From: Margaritifera margaritifera
Lineage: Eukaryota > Mollusca > Bivalvia > Unionida > Margaritiferidae
Direction: 5' to 3'
DNA length: 64,000 nucleotides
NCBI GenBank assembly: GCA_029931535.1
Contig: JAQPZY010001498.1
Location: forward strand, 2,988,001-3,052,000
The number at the start of each line of letters is the position of its first letter. The stretch's first letter is position 1. Positions 3,463 through 50,441 of the stretch are shown in pieces. The position numbers and the translations under genes are program-made. The notes beneath the pieces were generated by a model. That model did no database searches, had not been told where the DNA came from, and saw only the letters and a list, made by a program, of their open reading frames with translations.

Positions 3463-6400
3463 AATTTAGTGTATTTGTGGATAAATAAAGTTAAATGTCA
3501 GTTGGCTGCAATTCTTTATGACTGGACTTCTGCCACTGCCTACACAAGTGCCACCTTCACTTCAGCGGCTTGCCACCATCGGAGTCTGCGATGTCTTCTG
3601 TGTCATTGCCGCTTTTGCCTTGGTCTTCTGCATGCTCATTTGTGTCCGGCACTATGCCTTCCCCTTTGGCCAGCTTTACAAGGATGGCCATTAGACCACT
3701 CTTCACATGGCAGTGCAGCATTGCTCCATCAGCTGCAAAGATCGATCTTGGCACAACTGAGAGCTCGTGCCTCTCTACAGTTTTCTGTAGGCTGATTTCT
3801 GGAATTGACTTGGACACCAACAATGTGCGAGCAAAAAGGTTTCTGTCTTGTTTCAGCCCAACCATCTTGTCTTCGGTATTCACACTCATTTGCTTCCCTG
3901 TGGTCTTCCAGCCCTGTAGTTGACTCTTCTTCGTTGGAGCCCACAGGTTTGTCGTCCCTGACTTGATACGGTTAGAGACAAATTCGTCAAGTAGCTTGCT
4001 GCCAATTGTCCTTTGTCCGCATAGATCATTCTTGACCTTCTCAGGCTTGACTGTCTTTATCACCAAGTTAAATAGCTCACCACAGTCCTCGGTGAATGGA
4101 TTGGTAAAGCTCCTCAGAGTATCAGTGAGGGCTTCAGTGTTCTTCTCTTGCCGCGTGAGCACTTAAGTTGAGAGTGCAGGGTGATGCATTTGCGTAGCCG
4201 ACGATATGCCAGTCATCTCTTGAGCTTCTCCATCAAGCCTCGCTAGTTCTGGCGAGATAAGGAAGAACTTGCGATTGATTTATATTCAGGGTGATACCTA
4301 CGAGTCCACCAGTCACTTTCATTGAGCGGTTGATATGCTCCAGGGCATGATCAGCTCCAATGGCACAGAATGGCACATGTGGATTCTTGTTCATAACCCA
4401 ATTGTCAGGCAGAAACTCCTAGTTGATGTCAGTGTCTGACTCCTTCAGTGATTCCATGTCTGCTAGGTACAGGGGGATCATCCGTGGATAGACGAGCTTG
4501 TCATGAGCAAAGAAGTGCTTGGTGAATGCCTCGAGTATCATCTCCATAACCATCTGTATGTACTGACGCATCACGACTGGCAGTGGCTGGATCCCGTACT
4601 TCAAATCGAATCGAGTCATTTCTTTCATTACTTTCCAGGATTCGATGGCCTGCAGCTCTAAGCCGTCCTAGCAGATCCGGATGCTCTTGGAAGAAGGCTT
4701 CCTGATATAGTATAAGCAAGGCCTGCATGGTGACCATGTGTGCCTCTACTCCTCTCTTCACGTGATTCTCCTCAATGATCTGCTTGACTGGCATGGGTCC
4801 AGACAAGTCAGCCTAAGTCCAGTAGAAGTCTGTCCCGCTGTTCTCGATTTCAGATCAGATCCAATGCCGCGTAGCGCTGCCATCACTATGTGAAGCTCAC
4901 TAGGTCGGAGTATCATGTGATCCATGTATTTCCTAGCCGTTTTGAGCTGCTTTGCAGGCTTGTAGAGCCCGATGTCAATAAAGATGACAGTCGTGCGATC
5001 AGGGTCCACTACTTTTGTGTTGATGCCTTGGGCCTGCATGAGCACTCTCAGTAGTGTCTGCCAGTCATGTGCAGGTGCAGAAATGAGTGGTGGTGTGCCG
5101 ACTCCTGTGGTAGCTAGCTCATCGCCTATCAACGAGTGATATGCAGACCACGCGGGGATGTTTCCACGGGTAGTAGCAGCCTCTTCATCAGGACCTGCAT
5201 CGTCCTCCTCCATCATAGGTACTTCTCTCAGGCAACATCTGGGAGGCCGGCATCTGATTGTGGTTGTAAGTCTTCTTTCAGGCTGAATGAGGCATAGACA
5301 GGACTTGGTGGCTTGGGTGTTGGTTTGGAGAAGTCCAAGAGTGCAGTAACTGTGCTCGACAGTTACTTCATCGAGCGCCTCAGAGCTGGGCTAGTGAGCT
5401 CCAGCTTTGATACCTCATTTTCAGGTTGACATCTCCGGTAGATAACCATAGAAGTAGCATGGAGTGTACGTTTCCCATCAGGGGGTGTTTTGCAAAGAAG
5501 ACATGTCTTCCGTGAATGAAATAAGGTGGGAAGTAAATGCCATGATTAACCAGCATTCTCTGGAGTTTCTGCCCTTCCACTCGCAGGAGTCTGTTGTATT
5601 CAACTGACATCCCAAACCGATGTAAGATGTAGATTATTATCTTGCTTCGAATGGCTTGAAGAATGGCTACTCCAACTGCTAGCTGTTGTGGCATTTTATG
5701 TGTTGACATTATGGTCTGTGCTTTCTTGTTGCAGACTTGTTGCAGGGACAGGAACATCGTCACTGTACTTTGTGCTAGGTTTATGGAATGCTTGTTCACT
5801 TGTGAAGACTTCTTGTCAGGTGATAGCGTTTATTTGGTCCCTGAATGACCCACCGATAGAAGCTGTTCAGCTTTTTTGGTAAATGTTCCTCTGTAACATC
5901 TGTAACTGAACCACCAAATATCCATATTTTAGCTTTACTGATTGCTTTTCTCAGCACAGAAGCCGCATTGTATAGAACCTTCATGTCCATTTCACTGTTC
6001 ACGTTGTTCTCTTCCACCAGCTGTATTGCAGCATCTCGTGTGCTCTTGAGGGTTACAGGTTCATTGGTTTGTGGAATTCTACATCAGGTATTTCAATCGG
6101 TATGAGCTGTTTCAGTATTTTATGACTGCACTCATGGTTCACCATATTGTTGGCAGATAAGATGTCTTTTTACGCCTAATGGTGTACATACATACTAATT
6201 ACATTTCCATCAAGCAAAGTGCCCTCAACCAGACTGAGGAATTCAACCTCTGCTGCCAATTCATCAGCTGTACTTGGCCTAGATGGCGATGTGTTTATTG
6301 CTCTGCGACGAACATTTGTCATGTGCATTGCCCAGCATCGCTTGAGGTATTTGATGTCAATTGCATGTGCATCTTCTGGGTTGATGGATGTGTAGAGTTT

Positions 6401-6934
6401 GACAGGGAGCTGTTCGTTTCCACTCTTTTCGATGGCTTTTTTGAGAGAACGACCATCATTATCTGCAAACACGTGTAAAATATTCTTGTAAAATGTTCCG
6501 TTTTCACAGAAGAAGCACAGATCCTTCTTGCAAAGGGCTGACTGAGAGCGAGTGAAGGTGTCACAACCGGATGAATAACTAGAAGATGATTTTCGTCTGG
6601 TACTCTTGGAAACCATTCGCATTTCATATCGTTCTTTGCCTCTAATGCGCATTCCTGCATGTACTGTGTCTTGATGGCCCTTTCTGTGCCATGCGGCACG
6701 TCTTGATTCAAGACCATGGAAAGTGACATCACCAAGGCGTCTGCTTATCTCAGGATAGTCTTTATCGCCATAGTGAGAACACTCTCTGATGAAGTTTGGT
6801 ACTTTCTCATAGACACCTGGTTTCTCCACGAGTACTTCACCTGTCGCTGTTCGGCAGATGATGCAGAGCGAGTAGTTGATATCATACCTGGCCACTTTTA
6901 CAGTTGGCACTTGAATTTGAGCTACTGTCTCCAT
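3463..6934 (-). pseudogene. decayed large transposon-type protein (Academ-like?)
   Basis: Collinear minus-strand fragments run 6934-6176, 6017-5796, 5799-5380, 5216-4758, 4806-4501, 4628-4419, an unlisted piece at about 4420-4180, 4162-3557 and a last trace to 3463. Frameshifts or stops separate them, for example near 5480 and 4780. The N-terminal part has paired cysteines (CIIC, CFFC) and a WH motif suggesting zinc binding. The middle contains FYRWVIQGP, MPQQLAVGVA and FGMSVEYNRLLRVE; the later part contains AYHSLIGDE, HVKRG, FFAHDK and FAADGAMLHC. I recognise this as an uncharacterised multicopy protein of invertebrate genomes. From memory, its missing C-terminus resembles an XPG/FEN-type nuclease, hence the tentative Academ link. 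The copy ends just after a VIKNCSQL motif, before that domain, so it cannot be functional. The internal piece encoding VPFCAIGADHALEHINRSM confirms collinearity across the breaks. Confidence 0.75.
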
Positions 6935-7597
6935 AACGGTAGAATATAAATGCCGTTGCAGCAGAATGTTCGTGCAAACAGAATGTTAGTTTTAGCAAGA
7001 GAAAAGGATGGTGTTTATGCTGGATGATGCGTGTGCTCCCACCACCACATCGTTCACCTGCAACATTCAAGAAATACATGGAGGTTAGTTAGATGTCACT
7101 CAACATGGTACACAAGCTACACTACCTGATTTACACAGATGCAGAGTGTATATATTGAGCAGAGCAGAGTTGACACTGTATTAAATCTGAAACACATATA
7201 GAGCAAACAGATGAATTTATCAGTTTATGTTGGTATAACATACTATGCGAAAATGCTCAGATCAAGTGTTTCATGTACTGACTCATCACCATGACCAGAG
7301 CAGATTCCTAGACTGCCAACAAGTTTTTTTTATTGTTCTTTGGGCTCCCCTTAAGACATCTAGACTAGTGGTTTGCATTTATCACAAAATTCCAACAGGA
7401 CTGTATTTCATCGATTATGTTACCTGACTAAGTGTAATAACACACTCTTAACAAATTCAGCAATACATATTTTGGCCGTGGTAAAGAATGGACATCGTAT
7501 ACACAGAGAAAATGCAAACAGAATAAAGCAACAAAGAATATACATCGTATACTAATAGAAAATATATAGACAGAATTATGGCGGTGACCACCTGCCA
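6935..7597. other. 5' flank of the decayed transposon gene, no gene seen
   Basis: Upstream (minus-strand sense) of the decayed coding region. It may hold the element's promoter or terminus, but I found no inverted terminal repeat partner for it near 3.3-3.5 kb. The open frames here are short and featureless. Confidence 0.4.
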
Positions 7598-20115: not shown

Positions 20116-21212
20116 GTGAATAATACTACACAGTTAAGCTTTCACCAAAGTATACCGATTAACTACGGATCGGGAATCCTAAAAGATGTGCGGCAATATG
20201 AAGGAATGGCTAGGAAGGTTGCTCGTTTTAAGAATCATTTGAGATTCAGTTTACATTGTAAGCACCACGGAGTGATACCAGTTAGCTTGAGACTGAAAAG
20301 GGCTAGTCAAAGTCATCAGGTTCAGAAGATTTTACGTAGAGCGGAAAGTGCATTATTGAATTAGCGGATTACGGATATTTATCGAAAAATAAAACATCTG
20401 GAAACAACGGAAGGTTATCGGAAGAGGGTAAGACAGAAATGGTTAGGCTGACAACGCTTGCGCAGTGGAGGGAGCATGAGGACTGTAAACAAAGACAAAT
20501 TAATAAGTTTGAGATTTTAAATAAGAAAAGGGTTGTTAACAAGCAATGTGATAGTGATTCTGTGTCGGATAGTTGGGGGTGAAAAATGTGTATCAGCGTA
20601 CATTCTCTGAATCAGAACTATCGGTGTTAAAAAAAGGTTTGAACTTTGCAGTTTCACCGGAAAAAATGCCAGTTGTTGATTTACTGACAGCTACGGAATC
20701 TGCTGACAGGAATTTACTTAATATGGACGCCGATGAACTCAGAGCCGATGTGGTTGGTATCTTGAAAAAGAAGGGTAATCGGACCAAACCTAACATTAGT
20801 AAGGATGAAAGAAAAGCCTTGACCAATCTTCAAAGAGACAAGGACATCATTATTCTTCCTGCAGATAAGGGTCGGTGCACTGTTGTAATGGACAAATCTA
20901 CTTACAAAGAGTTATGTGTGAACATGCTTCAGGACTCTAACGCATACAAGAAATTGGCACGTGACCCCACTACCAAATACAAGAAAGAACTGTCAGATTA
21001 CATCAGAGATTTACATGAGAAAGAGAAGATAATTGATTGGTCACTTAGTAGACTATTATATCCTACTACTGAATCACCTCCGAAGTTTTACGGTTTACCA
21101 AAGATCAATAAAAAGAATATGTCATTGCGGTTGATAGTCAGTAGTGTGGGCTCTATTACCTACAATTGTGCAAAATGTTTGACCAAAATTTTATCACCAT
21201 TAGTTGGAAATA
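20116..21212 (+). pseudogene. Penelope-like reverse transcriptase, N-terminal half
   Basis: First fragment 20116-20364 carries the family's N-terminal RFKNHLRFSLHC motif. Stops and a frameshift interrupt 20362-20580. The main frame then runs 20573 to about 21210. Clear family motifs are the segment with LKKGLNFAVSP, the RT core start ILPADKGRCTVVMDK, and YGLPKINK followed by LRLIVSSVGSITYN and ILSPLVGNTE. Protein order and spacing fit a Penelope-type RT. These elements prime at chromosomal breaks and integrate with a GIY-YIG endonuclease. The frame is cut at about 21212, where a reversed transposon fragment begins, and roughly 50 family residues are missing before it resumes near 22940. Confidence 0.9.
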
Positions 21213-22454
21213 CTGAATCTTGGAAATTTTCCACGGAGGTATTTGAAAGCTGCTTGTGTTTTGTCCATGGCCTCGACAAAGTTCTTCATCAGACCCAGCT
21301 TGATGTGCAAGAGTGGTAACAAAATCTTCCTTGATTCAACAAGTGGTGGATGCTGAACACTTTTCATCTCAGGCTCAAATGACTGTTGGAGTGGCCAATC
21401 TCTCTTGATGTAATGAGAATCTCTCGCACGACTATCCCAGTTGCAGAGAAAACAGCAGTACTTTGTGTATCCTGTCTGCAGACCAAGCAAGAGAGCAAGA
21501 ACCTTGAAATCGCCACAAAGCTGCCACTGATGTTGGTCATAGTTTATGCACCTCAAAAGTTGTTTCATGTTTGCATAGGTTTCCTTCATATAGACTGCAT
21601 GACCAACTGGAATTGATGGCAAAACACTGCCATTATGCAGCAAAACAGCTTTAAGACTCGTCTTCGATGAATCAATGAACAGTCTCCACTCATCTGGATC
21701 ATGAATGATGTTGAGGGCTGCCATCACACCATCGATGTTGTTGCAGGCTACAAGATCACCTTCCATGAAGAAGAATGGGACAAGATCCTTTTGACTGTCA
21801 CGGAACATGGAAACCCTAACATCACATTCCAGGAGATTCCACTGCTGTAGTCTGGAGCCCAACAGCTTTGCTTACTCTTGGGTAGTTCCAAATCCCTAAC
21901 AAGGTCATTCAGTTCACCTTGTGTTATGAGGTGTGGTTCAGAGGAGGAGGATGGGAGAAAATATGGGTCATGTGACATTGATGGCTTAGAACTAGAAGTT
22001 TCATCCTCTTCCTCTTCCTCATCTGACTCAAGTGAGAATGATTCTGGTGCATCAGGAACCGGCAGTCCTTCTCCGTGGGGTACTGGGAGTATAGCTGACG
22101 GAATGCTTGGATAATGCACAATCCACTTTTTCTTCTTTGACACACCTTTCCCAACTAGAGGCACCATGCAGAAGTAACAATTGCTGATATGATCTGTTTG
22201 CTCTCTCCAAATCACTGGCACTGCAAAAGGCATAGATTTCCTTTTCCTGTTCAACCACTGGCAAAGATTTGTTGCACAAGTGTTGCAGCATATGTGTGGG
22301 GCCCACATCTTGTCCTGATCTCCAATTTTACAGCCAAAATAAAGGTAATAGGCTTTCTTAACCATAGTGGTTATACTGCGCTTTTGTTATGCAAAAGTCA
22401 CTTCACCACAAACATAGCAGAAGTTATCTCATTGTTCACACAATTACGAGGCAT
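21213..22454 (-). pseudogene. truncated invertebrate transposon-type protein (family unnamed)
   Basis: Likely original start is the ATG at 22454 (MPRNC). A frameshift and a stop interrupt the first 40 codons, around FCYVCGEVTF. The frame 22365-21880 carries WAPHICCNTC and YFCMV (paired cysteines, probable zinc binding), an acidic serine-rich linker and ITQGELNDLVRDLEL. After a frameshift near 21870 the frame continues to 21213 with VPFF, DPDEWRLFIDSSKTSLKAVL, GHAVYMKETY, LGLQTGYTKYCCFLCNWD and HIKLGLMKNFVEAMDKT. It stops after KYLRGKFPRFS. I recognise it as a multicopy 'uncharacterised protein' of arthropods, cnidarians and molluscs that is very probably transposon-derived. The C-terminal half is absent. 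Confidence 0.75.
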
Positions 22455-22935
22455 CTCTGCTCACTTTGGCTAAACAGAAATGTGTCCCTTTGCAAAATCA
22501 AACACTGACAAATAAGAGAGCACGACACTGTATGATTTGTAGAGCTGATATAGGGCAATTTCTTCAGCAGAGTGATGTAAGCTTAGTTATGATTGCATCA
22601 TCCATGACTTATAGGAATAACATGATGCAATTCATATCATGTATGAAGCAATACCAGCTTCAGATTGCATCATTCATTTGTTTTGCCTAAAAAGCAAGTA
22701 CTGTCCAAACCCAGTCATAGATTTATTCATAGATCCAGTCAAAGATGTATTTTTAGCCATTTCTGGTTTAAATTGAGATCCCTTCCCTTTATAACTCACT
22801 TCATCCTCCACCATTCCCAAGTCAAGGGTCGTATATACTGACCCAGTATAATATCTTTAAAACTAGAGCCAATCAACAATTTTAAGCATCATTTTCGTTC
22901 TCAGTGACCCAGAATTAGTAAAGTTTTACAACATT
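21213..22935 (-). mobile_element. opposite-strand transposon fragment nested in the Penelope copy
   Basis: This block separates the two halves of the reverse transcriptase. Its coding part runs 22454 to about 21213 on the minus strand, with a non-coding flank from 22455 to about 22935. The left junction shares the bases actgaatct between the two proteins' readings. No clear target duplication or inverted termini were found, which suggests microhomology-mediated insertion or rearrangement of a fragment instead of clean transposition. Edges are uncertain by about 30 bases. Confidence 0.65.
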
Positions 22936-23943
22936 TATTGCGGAAGCGTTTTTGCTGTAGACCAGTGTTATCATCTGATATTACCCTTACAAAGAGAACA
23001 CCACTTTCATCACAACAATTAACAAGACTGTTGGAGTTGTGCTTGAAGTGCACATACTTTGTGTATGATGGAATTTTTTACCGTCATTATACACAGTGCT
23101 GCGATGGGGTCGCCAGTTTCCCCTATAGTGTATAATTTATATATGGAACATTTTGAGTGGTTACCGCTCACCACTGCTCCACATCCCCCGGGTTGTTGGT
23201 ATAGATATGTGGATGACACACACTTAGCAGAAGGTAGAATATGTAACTGAGTTCATATATCACAATAATAGCACTAATCCAGATTTTACATTCACCATAG
23301 AAAAGGGAATAAATGGCGGATTAGCATTTTTGGACACGAACACGGTCAGAAACATCGACGGCACCTTGAAAGTTACGGTTTATCGTAAACCTATGCATAC
23401 AGACCAGTACCTTGATTTTGACTCGCACCATCAATTAGATCAGAAACTTGGGGTTGTCAGAATATTACATCATAGAGCCAAAGTCGTTACATCTGACCCC
23501 ATAGATTTAAAACAAGAACTCGATCATGTCAATGCTGCCATCAAGAGGTGTCATTATCCGGATTGGGGGATTAAGAAGGTCACCAACAGGCTGAACGCTA
23601 GTCAAAGTGACAGTACCGGGAAGAGCCGACCAATAACAAATAAAATTGACTCGAAAGGTAGCATCATCCTACCTTATGTGAAAGGGACTTCCGAATGCCT
23701 GAAACGCGTTTTTCAGCGACAGAAAATTAATGTGTGTTTTAAACCATACCGGACCATAAGACAGATGCTAGTTTACCCAAAGGATAAGTCTAATCAGAAA
23801 GATATTTGTGGACCTATCTATCACATAAAGTGTGTGAAGGACAAGGTGACAGTCAGTGCCTTCACAACTACATTGGGGAAACGGAAAGGATATTGAAAAC
23901 GAGATTCAACGAACATAGAAGACCAAGTTCAAGTTCGTCTGAG
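22936..23943 (+). pseudogene. Penelope-like reverse transcriptase, C-terminal half, with partial GIY-YIG
   Basis: Resumes with SSDITLTKRTPLSS and LLELCLKCTYF, then shifts frame to AAMGSPVSPIVYNLYMEHFE and the catalytic WYRYVDDTH (YVDD box, about 23197-23220). A break follows, then 23330-23896 gives AFLDTNTV, KVTVYRKPMHTDQYL and GPIYHIKC. A last frameshift leads to YIGETERILKTRFNEH and ends at RRPSSSSSEV. The GPIYHIKC and YIGET pair is the start of the GIY-YIG endonuclease. The remaining endonuclease residues and the C-terminal tail are missing because the reading runs into the GC-rich island at about 23944. At least three frameshifts make it non-functional. Confidence 0.88.
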
Positions 23944-23944
23944 G

Positions 23945-24340
23945 TACATCGACCAACAAGTCAATCTCCGGGTGGCCTAGTCTGGCGACACCATGGCCGG
24001 CGACCGGAACATTACCTCAAACAGGATCACGGATCTGGCGGCTCCCATTAGCGACCACGACGCGGTGAGAAAACAGTACGTCTCTGCTGTGGTGGCAAAA
24101 AGAAAACTTAAACCGCCGGGCGCCACAAATCAGACGTGCCGACGCGGTTAGGAAACAATGTGTCGACACCGCGGATGCAACCTTGGAAGAATATGTAAAT
24201 CGCCAATCCGCGGGAAGGTTCCCCAAGGCGGGTGATAGCATGGCTGGCCCCCTAAATGTGACCTCGAACAGGATTGTTGGGGTTGCGGATCTCCCAATTG
24301 TGGCAGCCAAAAGCTATATGGATGAGCTTAAACGTTGGAC
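23945..24340 (+). pseudogene. phage tail-fibre-like repeat protein fragment
   Basis: Two and a half copies of a repeat are visible. The unit reads roughly: YIDQQV..., SGDxMAGxxNxTSNRIxxxA, then DAVRKQYV. The first MAGDRNITSNRITDLAAP begins at the ATG at 23993 and is preceded by RYIDQQVNLRVA and a TAG. The second (MAGPLNVTSNRIVGVADLP) begins at about 24239, in another frame, preceded by DAVRKQCVDTA. This is the pattern of phage tail-fibre and adhesin repeats (N.I..LA.P....DA..K.YVD). From memory, similar repeats occur in multicopy, uncharacterised proteins of cnidarians and molluscs. A stop and a frameshift near 24095-24135 show decay. The function in an animal genome is unknown; attachment or trimeric fibre structure is inferred only. 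Confidence 0.6.
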
Positions 24341-24574
24341 GAGGCCTCTGGCCAGATAGTCATCGAGCAGTGGGGTCACCCAGATCACCCGAGGCCTAAC
24401 TGAAACCAGCTGGGGTTAATCGCACTTTCACTGCAGCAGCTAGCGCTAACAATTATTATTTCTAAATCGAGACCGCAGACATTGTCGATGCGCTCTCTCC
24501 GTCGCCCCTGCCGTGGCTATACAGTGAAGAGCAAACGCTCACCCGCATCAGAGGGCGTAAGACCCGTTTCTCTT

Positions 24575-24760
24575 TTAGAAAGGATATGCTGTGTCGCATT
24601 TCGTTCCTCGGATAAAAACACCCCGCTCAATGTCCGCGTTATAGCGAGAGCCATAATGATTGGATAAAACATCGACATATACTTCAACCTCATTACCATC
24701 GTGTGGGTGTGCCAGTGTGAAAAGCTGAAGGCTTGCGGGCGCAGAATTGCCCTTTAGCAC
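24575..24760 (-). pseudogene. unidentified reverse-strand reading frame in the GC-rich island
   Basis: Sixty-one codons on the minus strand, lying between the two plus-strand coding traces and divergent from the membrane-protein gene. The composition looks protein-like: contains FTLAHPHDGNEVEVYVDVL and RYNADIERGVFIRG. I do not recognise a family. It ends at a stop beside AYPF and may be a remnant of a longer gene or a chance frame in GC-rich DNA. Confidence 0.3.
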
Positions 24761-24861
24761 CCTGGTCGCTGGTGATCAATTAAAGTTCTACCTCACACTG
24801 CTCATCGAGGAACTATGTGTCTGCATACAAAGCTCGACGACCTGCAAGACTTTCGACTCAC

Positions 24862-25400
24862 CTGAATATCAGAGGTAGAGGCCGCCCTACATGCTGAGGC
24901 AGAGCAGCGGCGGGACCTCTACAAGAAGTACCACCGCGCTGTCGGCGTGGTGGACGGCGTCGATCGACGGCGCCCTGACCGTCTATCCATGGCGGGTGAC
25001 GTTGCAGGCGTAGCTCTGTTGACCACCATAAGCGACGTGCCCATGGTGGTTGGCCTCGATGGTCTGTCCTTGGACTGTGCCCTATTGTCCCTGATGGGGG
25101 CGTACATCAGCCGCCGATTCACCTCAAAGGCCAAAAAGCACTACGAATTCCGCATACTGCCGGAGGCCAAGCGCAACACCATCATGGACCCGGTATCCCG
25201 AGCGCTGCACGACCGCTCATACTCTGAGGAGGAGTTCCGGCTCATCCTCGATGAGCGCGAAATGTACGAGGTGTCCAAGAACGAGATCGGGCAAACTCGC
25301 AGATGGTGCATGCCGCACGATCCCTCGACGAGGCGGCAAAAAACCGGTTGATCCCCCTCAAAGGACGAGGACCGCGCAGACCTTCTGGCAGCGCTGGGTG
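24862..25400 (+). pseudogene. two-membrane-segment, coiled-coil protein of the GC-rich island
   Basis: A continuous plus-strand frame runs from about 24862 to 25290; an ATG is not evident, and the first GTG is at 24947. Order: a charged helical lead (EAALHAEAEQRRDLYKKYHR), a VDGVD turn, two hydrophobic segments at about 24993-25115 (AGVALLTTI and GLDGLSLDCALLSLMGAYI), then ISRRFTSKAKKHYEFRILPE and a helical tail (EEEFRLILDEREMYEVSKNE). After a frameshift near 25295 the homologous-looking tail continues (AARSLDEAAKNRLI). I recall this architecture in uncharacterised multicopy proteins of cnidarians and molluscs, sometimes near the fibre-like repeats. Membrane association is inferred from hydrophobicity; no function is known to me. 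Confidence 0.55.
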
Positions 25401-25519
25401 CACTTGGGAAGTCTTCTTGAGCTGTGCAGCGCCACCTGCCGCCGTCAGCGTGTGATACCCCATGGACGCCACTCTCCCCAAACGCTCCTCGACGACTGTA
25501 TTCATCGTGCGTCGCCGAC

Positions 25520-25980
25520 CTATGTGTCCTGATCGATGTCCATGGATTGTGGCACCACCGACATGCTGCCAGCTGTTCTAAGCTGCTCGGTTTCATAGGG
25601 GCCGTCGAGCACATATACATGTTCCATAAATACTTCTTCCGATACCTTAAACAAGAGTAAACGCAAGACGTATGTCGTAGGTGGGGCGGTGTTATACTCC
25701 CACAACATAAGGTGCGGGCCGTGAACCCAGTCATATCGACTTTGATCCGTTTTGCCTAGATGTGTAAGATAGATGTTGACCACGACAGAAAAAGAAAATA
25801 ATAATAGGCTTCCGGATGTCTGACGTAATCATCTGTTTCGTCATTACAGTGATCGGAGCCGTAGGTGATTTCGTACTCAAACATTATACCTTCATCATCG
25901 TCCGAGGATTAGCTCCACTCCTTCATACCTTTATACCGCTTCTGGACCCCCGTCGATACATATTGCTCGCGCTCATGTCT
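25520..25980 (-). pseudogene. unidentified reverse-strand protein remnant in the GC-rich island
   Basis: A minus-strand frame from 25783 to 25520 contains YDWVHGPHLMLWEY and EHVYVLDGPYETEQL. A second frame immediately upstream (about 25980-25790) contains an acidic stretch DDDEGIMFEYEITYGSD and RHPEAYYYFLFLSW. The two appear to be one gene split by a frameshift near 25785 and a stop near 25905. The amino-acid usage is protein-like, but I recognise no family. It is convergent with the membrane-protein gene. Confidence 0.35.
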
Positions 25981-26275
25981 ATGATGGTATAGCATAGACA
26001 CACCTCTTCTCTAATTGGTTGTTAGGTGGTGGTGGGATCCTCTCACACCCACAACAAGTATTAGTTGCCAAAACGTTTCGGTTCCCATGTGCCTCTCTGT
26101 AGTAAGGCCGGGCGGAGATGGCGCACAGTGGAGGGTGCTCTCTTTTGGCTGTCTTGCAGAAGCCAAACGGTAACCCACAAAAGCTCCCAGAGTCTAGCAA
26201 AAACGTTGCTGCACCGTGATATAGCAAAAGTGAATCAAGGTGGCCTCAAAGAGGCAGTCTACAACTACTAAACCT

Positions 26276-27527
26276 TTCACCCTTTGCGTTGCGTATCCAT
26301 AAAGCACTGTATATATGTCAAAATTGTGTCAGGTGCAGGAGGATCCATCAACATGATATGCAACAATTTTGTGTACTTTTAATGGCATACTCTATTGGCA
26401 ACATGATCAGCCAAAATGGGGATGACATGAGGAGTAATCTATATGGCAAATAAATGTGTGTCACGTCCAAAGAGAAATAATATTCAAACTCTAACAACGA
26501 GAGCTGTCCTATGTTTTTGAATGCCAAGAAGAGGCTAAGAATCAAACTTTACACAGGGAATCTCACTTGCCAGAGACTTTTTGGACCTTATGCCTTTTAA
26601 TTTATATGATCAAGCCTCATTTAGAATAGTGTAAAGTATCCACATGCATGTGTTCGCAAAGTAAGATTATCAGAGTTCACGTTGGTTCCTACAACACAAC
26701 ACAACATAGGCAAACAAACGTAAAACGGGTGTCCAATGAAGACACTCAGAGCTGGTTGGTACTTCAGATTTGTGGACTACAAATCATTTCTTTCTGTATT
26801 CGAAAATAAGTAGAATGTAATGGGTTGAAACTTTAATTAATATTCTATACCAGTTGGATAGATACACCCCTATGGGGTACACCCGCAATGGAATCTTACA
26901 TCATCTCACTAAGTATTTTTTTTTTCATCATTTTCAAATTTATTATTAAATGAAAAAGTCACCAGAAGTACTGGTGAGAACCACGAGTCAAAAATATGAG
27001 ACTGAAAAAGCTGATAAGATTTTCTCTGGGACTTGATCCCATGTTCCTAGTACCAAATAAAGGAAGATCAGAATCACTTATCTTTGTAAGAAAATGATCC
27101 AAAACTGATGATTTATAAAATCAAGTGTGCTGCCTTCCTTCAAACTTTTTCAAAACTCTGATAAAGATATGTCTTGCATCATCTGAAAGTCTTTGTAGTT
27201 CTGAAGAACTGCCAGTCAGGTTCAATTTTTGTTGAACATGAAACATTTCTGTACAACTTGTGTTCCCCGAGAGAAGGAAGTTTTGTTAATGTACTCTGAA
27301 TAGGGTTGGCATCATTTCTTCAGAAACATGCTGAAATAGCAAACCGTTCCCTCAAATATAGGAACCCTGCATAATCATTAAGAAACATTATGTTGGAGTG
27401 ATGTGCATGCAGTCAGACAGAGTTGGGTCTCAGTTTCCTTCTGAAGAATTATAATGGTTGCTATTTAGGGTATGGGAGATTGGTTCTGGCTATGTCACTA
27501 GAGTCTACTGAACCTGTTGTGAGTTTT
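26276..27527. other. non-coding stretch, no gene seen
   Basis: AT-rich spacer between the GC-rich island and the palindrome-ended element. No motif-bearing frame was found on either strand. Confidence 0.45.
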
Positions 27528-28096
27528 GATCGGTGTTATGAAACACCCAAATCCACCCAAATCCACACCAAATCCACCCAAATCCACACCAAATCCACCC
27601 AAATCCAAACCAAATCCACCCAAATCCAAACCAAATATACGAAATCTTATTGAGTCTACCGTCTCGTCTCTAAATTGCAACGCACTCCCATTTTTCATTC
27701 AAAGTCGACGTTCCTGTGTTTGGTTGATATATAAATACAAATGTAATTGACGAGTCGTATATCTTTAGACTGTAATCTTCACGCCATTAATAAATAAACA
27801 GACAAAGATTAATAAACGTTTCACTTAATTTAAATGAATAATTACAGCATGAAAATGCATAACAAACACCTAGTAAACAGGACTGATAAAGGACTGATAA
27901 AGAAATTATATATTGCGCATATCCGTTATAATTCTCATTCAAAGTCGGGTTTCACTATGTCCTCCAACTCGGTGCATCATTACATGTGCTAATATAACAG
28001 ACTCACCCTTAGTTGTATCCCTATATTTCGCGTTGTGACAACTATATATGCCGAAAATTGTTACAAAACATCTAGATTTGGGTGTTTCATGACACC
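27528..28096. mobile_element. putative palindrome-ended non-autonomous element
   Basis: Both ends carry the same roughly 22-base inverted repeat: ggtgttatgaaacacccaaa at about 27532-27551 and its complement at about 28075-28096. Each end is itself a near-palindrome around atga/tcat. The interior has two direct copies of cattcaaagtcg (about 27697 and 27938) and the minisatellite at 27546-27640. No protein is encoded. Confidence 0.4.
27546..27640 (+). repeat. 21-bp minisatellite, about 4.5 units
   Basis: Units of the type aaatccacccaaatccacacc, with a later variant where the second half ends in aaacc. Because 21 is divisible by three, both strands show short open frames with heptapeptide repeats; these are not evidence of a gene. 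Confidence 0.85.
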
Positions 28097-36105: not shown

Positions 36106-36704
36106 TAGTTAAATATATACTACACGTGCATGAAGAAAAACAAATGGTAGTGTGACTTGATTACACCATTACTCAAAGGAGTTAACTAGATATGTGTACA
36201 GGCAATAATATTGTATCAGCTTTTATAATTTGTTATTGCATTGGTAGAAATGAGATTTATTGGAAGTTTCTTGGCGGCTATCTGAAGGACAGATACATTG
36301 GAATTTATTTGTGATTTGCAACAATATGTAAACCCACATTACATGTTGCAAATCATAGTTTGGATACATCAAAGGGTTGCGATTGAACGAGAAATGTTCA
36401 GTATTGAAGGTAATAGTTATGTAATGATGGTATGAAAATTATTAAAGTGAAAAATATTTGATATTTAGTACAAGGATGGGAAGGTCCACGTGAGATATAG
36501 TAAATATTAAATTCAAAATATTTAATTAAATAATTTGTGTCTCCTGGAATTGTAAGCAGACTTCATTAGAGTAAAACGGACAATAAACGATTCCAAGATT
36601 TTTTAACGATATATACTTTATATTATTTGATTACATCCGCTTAGTTGAGCCATGCAGTTCTTAATCTTATTAAATTTTCCATCATATTTAGTATTATAAA
36701 ACGT

Positions 36705-37394
36705 AAAGGCATGTAACGCATGACAACATTCCTGCCTTAAAGTGCTACCTGATTAGTTCATAATCTAAAGGCATGTAACGCATGACAACATTCCTGCCTT
36801 AAAGTGCTACCTGATTAGTTCATAATCTAAAGGCATGTAACACATGACAACATTCCTGCCTTAAAGTGCTACCTGATTAGTTCATAATCTAAAGGCATGT
36901 AACGCATGACAACATTCCTGCCTTAAAGTGCTACCTGATTAGTTCATAATCTAAAGGCATGTAACACATGACAACATTCCTGCCTTAAAGTGCTACCTGA
37001 TTAGTTCATAATCTAAAGGCATGTAACACATGACAACATTCCTGCCTTAAAGTGCTACCTGATTAGTTCATAATCTAAAGGCATGTAACGCATGACAACA
37101 TTCCTGCCTTAAAGTGCTACCTGATTAGTTCATAATCTAAAGGCATGTAACACATGACAACATTCCTGCCTTAAAGTGCTACCTGATTAGTTCATAATCT
37201 AAAGGCATGTAACGCATGACAACATTCCTGCCTTAAAGTGCTACCTGATTAGTTCATAATCTAAAGGCATGTAACGCATGACAACATTCCTGCCTTAAAG
37301 TGCTACCTGATTAGTTCATAATCTAAAGGCATGTAACGCATGACAACATTCCTGCCTTAAAGTGCTACCTGATTAGTTCATAATCTAAAGGCAT
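36705..37394 (+). repeat. 62-bp tandem satellite, 11 units
   Basis: Eleven consecutive 62-base units start at 36705 and end in a partial unit at 37387. Each begins aaaggcatgtaacRcatgac and ends ttcataatct. Units are otherwise identical by eye. The single variable site is the R following 'taac': G in units 1, 2, 4, 7, 9, 10, 11 and A in units 3, 5, 6, 8. The near-perfect identity implies recent amplification or homogenisation. Confidence 0.95.
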
Positions 37395-49269: not shown

Positions 49270-49493
49270 CAATTTACCGGTATATCATAAAATGAATTAC
49301 GTTTTGATCACCTGATATGCGCATGAATATCACCGTTTTATGAACGAAGCACGTGTAGTTCCAGCCTTGTGTGAGTGTATGTTGATACGGAATCAGAAAC
49401 ATCAGTATCGTTTTTCTACCTCTAGAAAATGGTAGTAACATTCGGGCTCTTTCTTGAGTGACAAAACTGATAGATATATAACAATATCAAGAT

Positions 49494-50441
49494 AATTATA
49501 TTGTATAAGATCATTATATTGTGCAAGATCATTATACTGTATAAGATCATTATATTGTATAAGATCATTATATTGTATAAGATCATTATATTGTGCAAGA
49601 TCATTATATTGTGCAAGATCATTATATTGTGCAAGATCATTATACTGTATAAGATCATTATATTGTATAAGATCATTATATTATATAAGATCATTATATT
49701 GTATAAGATCATTATATTGTGCAAGATCATTATATTGTGCAAGATCATTATATTGTGCAAGATCATTATATTGTATAAGATCATTATATTATATAAGATC
49801 ATTATATTGTATAAGATCATTATATTGTGCAAGATCATTATATTGTGCAAGATCATTATATTGTATAAGATCATTATATTGTGCAAGATCATTATATTGT
49901 GCAAGATCATTATATTGTATAAGATCATTATATTGTGCAAGATCATTATATTGTGCAAGATCATTATATTGTATAAGATCATTATATTGTGCAAGATCAT
50001 TATATTGTATAAGATCATTATATTATATAAGATCATTATATTGTATAAGATCATTATATTGTGCAAGATCATTATATTGTGCAAGATCATTATATTGTGC
50101 AAGATCATTATATTGTGCAAGATCATTATATTGTATAAGATCATTATATTGTGCAAGATCATTATATTGTGCAAGATCATTATATTGTGCAAGATCATTA
50201 TATTGTATAAGATCATTATATTATATAAGATCATTATATTGTATAAGATCATTATATTGTGCAAGATCATTATATTGTGCAAGATCATTATATTGTATAA
50301 GATCATTATATTGTATAAGATCATTATATTGTGCAAGATCATTATATTATATAAGATCATTATATTGTATAAGATCATTATATTGTGCAAGATCATTATA
50401 TTGTATAAGATCATTATATTGTATAAGATCATTATATTGTG
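49494..50441 (+). repeat. 18-bp minisatellite, about 52 units
   Basis: Unit gatcattatattgtataa with three main variants at the last bases: gtataa, gtgcaa and atataa. The variants alternate in blocks, and one block (gtataa-atataa-gtataa-gtgcaa) recurs four times, showing higher-order duplication. Because 18 is a multiple of three, long open frames exist on both strands (six-residue hydrophobic repeats). They are consequences of the repeat and lack any other gene evidence. Confidence 0.97.

Follow-up and report, generated by a model that had tools for sequence, protein, structure and literature searches.

The window analysed here, a stretch of 64,000 nucleotides, looks like animal chromosome: it is AT-rich, contains simple repeats, satellites and retroelement-like fragments, and gave no match in tRNA and Rfam scans. 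Within it lies a block (23944-25420) with a GC content of 0.551 vs 0.347 in the remainder of the window, which bears out the sharply GC-rich block described in a first-pass annotation made from the sequence alone. The block carries the remnants of two adjacent genes on the same strand, a phage-type fibre and a membrane protein, and is preceded by a broken retroelement (Table 1). Measured over 200 bases at a time, the GC content is 0.385-0.43 from 23000 to 23899 and 0.54 at 23900-24099, and is higher further on, up to 0.63; the onset at about 23944 is the place where the retroelement breaks off in its GIY-YIG part. Beyond 25420 the GC content declines unevenly, and a second sharp edge is absent.

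Table 1. Features of the locus, with positions in the window and the basis of each assignment
Positions	Strand	Feature	Basis
20573..23943	+	Penelope-like retroelement (probable), broken, with RT fragments followed by the first part of GIY-YIG	Pfam; ends at the junction
23939..23950		Junction: retroelement reading ends, fibre-like reading begins	Reading frames, tblastn, GC step
23945..24356	+	Phage-type fibre gene remnant with repeated modules, 5' part missing	PHROG, Pfam, internal repeat
24357..24814	+	GC-rich interval downstream of the fibre repeats, up to the membrane gene; unassigned	Position and GC only
24815..25420	+	Decayed gene for a membrane protein, LYPxL family	Profile, tblastn; end from reading frames
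24821..24835	+	Site corresponding to the family's LYPxL motif, with LHTKL in this copy	Reading frame begun at the ATG (24815); alignment columns of the family
25421..26300		Uneven, partly raised GC, no identified gene	GC 0.36-0.62 (200-base windows)

The upstream element was matched by the Pfam families RVT_1 on 23047-23247 (E 0.0051) and GIY-YIG on 23794-23958 (E 0.034), both under the curated cut-off, while 20573-21316 had no Pfam match; its reverse transcriptase (RT) and GIY-YIG pieces are broken, but stand in the order expected for a Penelope-like element. We call it Penelope-like because it combines an RT with GIY-YIG, and also because of its sequence, which we take to be that of the family. 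An RT joined to a C-terminal GIY-YIG domain is the Penelope-like architecture (PMC3846280, in excerpt). Two overlapping open pieces on the minus strand (21203-22386, about 212 and 223 residues) lie inside the retroelement and split the RT; they are probably a nested insertion of another element, and Pfam gave chance-level matches only (E 0.072) for the one of the two that was searched. At the junction the retroelement reading stops at about 23944 and similarity to the fibre begins at 23945 (tblastn), and both partners are truncated.

The fibre remnant consists of modules in the order MAG, DAV, DAV, MAG: GDTMAGDRNITSNRI at 23984, DAVRKQYV at 24059, DAVRKQCV at 24141 and GDSMAGPLNVTSNRI at 24231. 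The two patterns, which were composed after the modules had been seen, match only these four places in the six frames of the window and were found in none of 2000 block shuffles, and the modules match one another within the window (tblastn, E 2.7e-5 and 3.2e-4). Thus the two or more copies of a MAG...DAVRKQYV repeat that had been claimed stand as two MAG..TSNRI and two DAVRKQ modules; after the second MAG module, a diverged end (AAKSYMDE) stands in place of DAVRKQYV. Since the modules lie in different frames with stops between them, the fibre gene is broken. The earlier comparison of these repeats with phage fibres is supported by PHROG, in which the 56 residues encoded by 23981-24148 matched 11 families at E<=10, of which five carry a tail name and PHROG 2710 (tail fiber) is the best (E 1.1e-4); none of nine shuffled controls matched a tail family, the shuffles giving two weak matches to families of unknown function (E 0.24 and 0.29). 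A short fibre piece also matched Pfam Phage_T7_tail (E 0.0047, under the cut-off), and the repeat matched the tail fiber protein gp9 in PDB (E 0.17). Among phage records there were 168 matches at E<=10, of which the best 20 have 31-52% identity (best E 5e-3) and three have 60-80%. The second fibre piece matched no PHROG or Pfam family, and no relative of the fibre pieces was confirmed in IMG/VR by scans that need short conserved stretches and work best for close relatives. Judged from its sequence, the fibre repeat is real, and a close relative was not reached by these searches. The module and its spacing style (N-x-I...L-x-x-P...DA-x-x-K-x-YV) are shared with phage tail fibres, but the remnant is only remotely similar to them, is broken, is flanked by an animal-type retroelement and adjoins a membrane gene that has no phage match. 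The GC-rich stretch that follows is possibly the end of the fibre; for 24404-24664 PHROG gave no match and Pfam nothing beyond DHFR_2 at chance level (E 0.2), and 24466-24612 had no Pfam match.

The membrane gene has a stop-free core (24866-25348) with two hydrophobic stretches. By tblastn with family member P0058, its homology continues past a stop as far as the ATG at 24815, and the reading frames suggest a C-terminal end at about 25420; the gene is broken by the stop near 24863 and by frame changes, so that the decay noted earlier holds for both genes. When the core was used as a query a single protein was found (P0001, 38% identity, E 7.9e-17), and the highest identity over the core is 48%, to P0103 (tblastn). 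In public sequence, a two-sequence profile detected at least 258 homologues (E<=1; 7993 candidates scored), in keeping with the many members that had been expected, and the 120 of these that are listed come from metagenome and archive contigs. Alignment A3 comprises 72 of the 120 (48 were omitted, being judged truncated, odd-ended or redundant); A2 contains 37 of the 120 and the window piece, A4, a divergent set, 11 and the window piece, and A5 contains 36. The profile from A3 matched the window at E 6.2e-40, as the sole match among 2099 six-frame segments. No branch of the family tree is longer than that of the window gene (1.59), which clusters with ten divergent members (100/99); the program itself flags this position as unsure. 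The gene thus belongs, by sequence, to a real family that is unnamed in the searched libraries.

A conspicuous property of this family is a short motif in the N-terminal tail. YPxL or YPxxL, mostly as LYPxL, occurs in 83 of 91 tails (from the 120 listed of the 258 homologues), whereas 1000 shuffles averaged 2.8 such tails and never exceeded 9, and a hydrophobic residue precedes the Y in 82 of the motif-bearing tails. The 91 are those homologues that start with Met and have 10 or more tail residues ahead of an FRL-type motif; another 28 of the 120 are without such a tail and one is too short. A cruder count, of the motif within the first 70 residues, gave 82 of 112 Met-starting homologues. In A3 the motif is present in 68 of the 72 rows (52 with the strict form [LM]YP.[LI]), with Y in 71/71, P in 68/71 and L in 70/70, the residue between P and L being free and the rest of the tail variable. 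It starts anywhere from residue 1 to 32, and is separated from the FRL motif by 6-31 residues (66 rows); because both place and spacer vary, it has the character of a short linear motif. All ten second-clade members keep it. Membership of the window copy in the family rests on the match over the core, the copy being decayed and the motif not universal.

By its sequence pattern the tail has the form of an ALIX/ESCRT late domain, and is a candidate ALIX motif. It is conceivable that it represents a tyrosine sorting signal of the YxxL type instead, but since the P is conserved the ALIX reading is favoured. The YPXnL late domain binds ALIX, and tiger frog virus, an iridovirus, recruits ALIX through a YPXnL protein for budding (PMC4880917, in excerpt). 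With ALIX-binding late-domain proteins (viral Gag and others, and syntenin) the family shares a YPXnL motif whose P and L enclose a free residue, here in an N-terminal tail; it differs from them in that no Gag or matrix domain was recognised in it, and the window copy is without the motif.

AlphaFold models of P0011 (pLDDT 79.5, pTM 0.49) and of P0103, which is close to the window copy (pLDDT 82.8, pTM 0.63), both consist of two helices of about 60 residues followed by two shorter ones, with the hydrophobic stretch around the turn, and so agree with the first-pass picture of a same-strand protein with two hydrophobic segments and helical flanks. In BFVD the top five matches were identical for both models (A0A068QKD3, A0A5B8RH66, S6DF61, Q06VM1 and A0A6G6ZQR1), with E 1.4e-6 to 1.3e-3 for the P0011 model and 6.8e-9 to 1.8e-4 for the P0103 model, while the next ranks had E 4.3e-3 and 5.0e-3. 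Three named matches among them are uncharacterised proteins of Armadillidium vulgare iridescent virus (A0A068QKD3), Liz-CrIV (A0A5B8RH66) and IIV-22 (S6DF61), the last a betairidovirus. For these three, Foldseek gave E 1.4e-6 to 6.8e-6 and 6.8e-9 to 6.1e-8 with the respective models and TM 0.54-0.66, at high rmsd between all-helical structures; such scores run too high for helical hairpins, and many alignment rows went into both models. Identity in the structural alignments is 15-24% over the five viral proteins and 22-24% for the three iridescent-virus ones. The return of the same kin at the top in both searches, together with this 22-24% identity, argues, at the level of predicted models, for a true relatedness between the family and the iridescent-virus proteins. 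In the predicted models a long hairpin of helices would make up most of either protein, at a similar length (214-276 aa); they differ in the low identity and in the genomic setting, a free virus vs a chromosome here. The conserved YPxL/YPxxL tail of the family and the iridescent-virus proteins as its top structural matches are the new observations of this study.

We give about even credence to the view that the block is a decayed and truncated remnant of an undescribed virus-like element of animals, in which a fibre of phage type would have been encoded together with a membrane protein that recruits ESCRT. It is the simplest account because the fibre adjoins, in a single decayed GC-rich block, a protein whose family has the ALIX-type motif and the iridescent-virus kin, and this motif and the structural relatives strengthen a viral reading. 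We infer that both genes belong to one element. In such an element a fibre of phage-tail-type repeats would sit on the particle and bind cells, while the membrane protein is predicted to form a hairpin whose hydrophobic turn would be the membrane part, with both ends on one side; the LYPxL tail of intact relatives would recruit ALIX and then ESCRT-III, which would cut membrane necks and so allow particles to bud. Several findings count against this: the pair was seen at one locus only, residues 24-96 of the frame of the second fibre piece had no match at E<=10 among 5.8 billion proteins (54 scored), the rmsd to the five viral proteins is 2.6-28.5 and often large, and the motif is missing in eight of the 91 tails, with near misses such as YANL, YSEL, YAVL and YPSF, and in others no such sequence. 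The capsid, polymerase or integrase that the first-pass annotation had thought of as companions of the two genes was not found at this locus, nor was a phage structural gene or any other Pfam domain (six frames of 23939-27939, E<=0.1), in a scan insensitive enough to miss the short-piece fibre match as well. The virus-database search that it proposed gave no confirmed relative of the membrane protein in IMG/VR, where the scans depend on short conserved stretches and are most effective for close relatives. Its interpretation is partly supported.

It can be put forward tentatively, and with more doubt, that invertebrate genomes contain a lineage of virus-like elements outside the described groups, combining a phage-type fibre with an ESCRT/ALIX-recruiting membrane protein, which would then be homologous to the unexplained iridescent-virus protein; such elements would bud, and their fibre would bind receptors. 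Both protein types presumably recur in invertebrate assemblies. Polintons/Mavericks are large virus-like mobile elements of animals, and the putative element would resemble them in that respect, but in this truncated fragment no polymerase B, integrase or capsid was seen (Pfam, E<=0.1, 23939-27939). If the reading is correct, a nameless gene family gains a candidate function in ALIX recruitment, uncharacterised iridescent-virus proteins acquire relatives as well as a hypothesis, and an attachment fibre of phage type becomes linked to an element of animal chromosomes, which bears on passage between animals.

Rather unlikely, in our judgement, is an origin of the membrane protein in the host, as a host-derived or domesticated multicopy family linked to ESCRT-dependent vesicle traffic, with the fibre an unrelated neighbour brought there by rearrangement and the iridescent viruses having taken the gene from their hosts. 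LYPxL is indeed used by host proteins too, and occurs three times in syntenin (PMC7176721, in excerpt); moreover, no source name among the 120 listed homologues says virus, none was confirmed in IMG/VR, and, with each gene truncated or broken, the two may have become neighbours secondarily. On the other hand, the two genes are adjacent, on the same strand and within one GC-rich block of an AT-rich window, and several hundred diverged homologues would be no less expected of a viral or mobile gene than of one from the host. Less probable again is that a mobile element carried the membrane protein as a SLATT-like or LeoBC-like effector, in a membrane-permeabilising module for defence or competition, and not as a budding factor. 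Such a bacterial-type membrane effector could be meant because PADLOC LeoBC profiles match 27 of the 72 proteins in A3 (cut-off E<=0.01, lowest E 4e-6, with profile positions 421-550 out of 601 covered in the case of the first member) and 11 of 12 in the divergent set A4, which makes a remote tie to a bacterial defence-linked membrane protein possible from sequence profiles. SLATT-named giant-virus proteins were also among the structural matches, but in the searches with either model they came after the iridescent-virus proteins (best E 0.012 for P0011 and 0.026 for P0103). We know of no N-terminal LYPxL tail in SLATT proteins. SLATT is a predicted pore-forming effector (PMC7159879 and PMC9503650, in excerpt), and such two-TM effectors and LeoBC share with the family two hydrophobic segments, helical flanks and weak profile or fold matches. 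These matches are weaker than those to the iridescent-virus proteins, no SLATT family is among the 25 Pfam families (of 31) listed for 38 family members, a partner sensor gene or other partner genes were not seen here, and the conserved LYPxL tail would be left without explanation.

An assembly artefact, in which phage or microbial DNA was joined to an animal contig at 23944, would account for the abrupt change in GC and for the truncation of both partners at the junction, but we consider it very improbable. Stops and frame changes abound in the block, as they would not in intact coding DNA of a phage, and its far end lacks the second GC edge. In line with the first-pass annotation, no close phage source was found: the matches of the fibre are remote (31-52% identity in the best 20 of 168), and the membrane family has no match among the phage records and no confirmed relative in GTDB genomes, in a scan that needs short conserved stretches and is best for close relatives.

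Other parts of the window have features of their own. Downstream of the membrane gene, where Pfam and PDB searches with pieces of 25421-26300 returned nothing usable, a stop-free stretch of 102 residues with raised GC is present on the minus strand (25523-25828, no match in Pfam or PDB). Also on the minus strand, 3557-6985 has a GC content of 0.39-0.48 per kb and contains several open pieces, by appearance fragments of one long uncharacterised protein; the two pieces searched (6179-6985 and 4761-5216) had no match in Pfam, and similar multicopy proteins presumably exist in invertebrates. Finally, a satellite array with units of 18/108 bases occupies 49489-50440, and 36704-37394 is a tandem repeat with 11 copies of a 62-base unit at 99% match.
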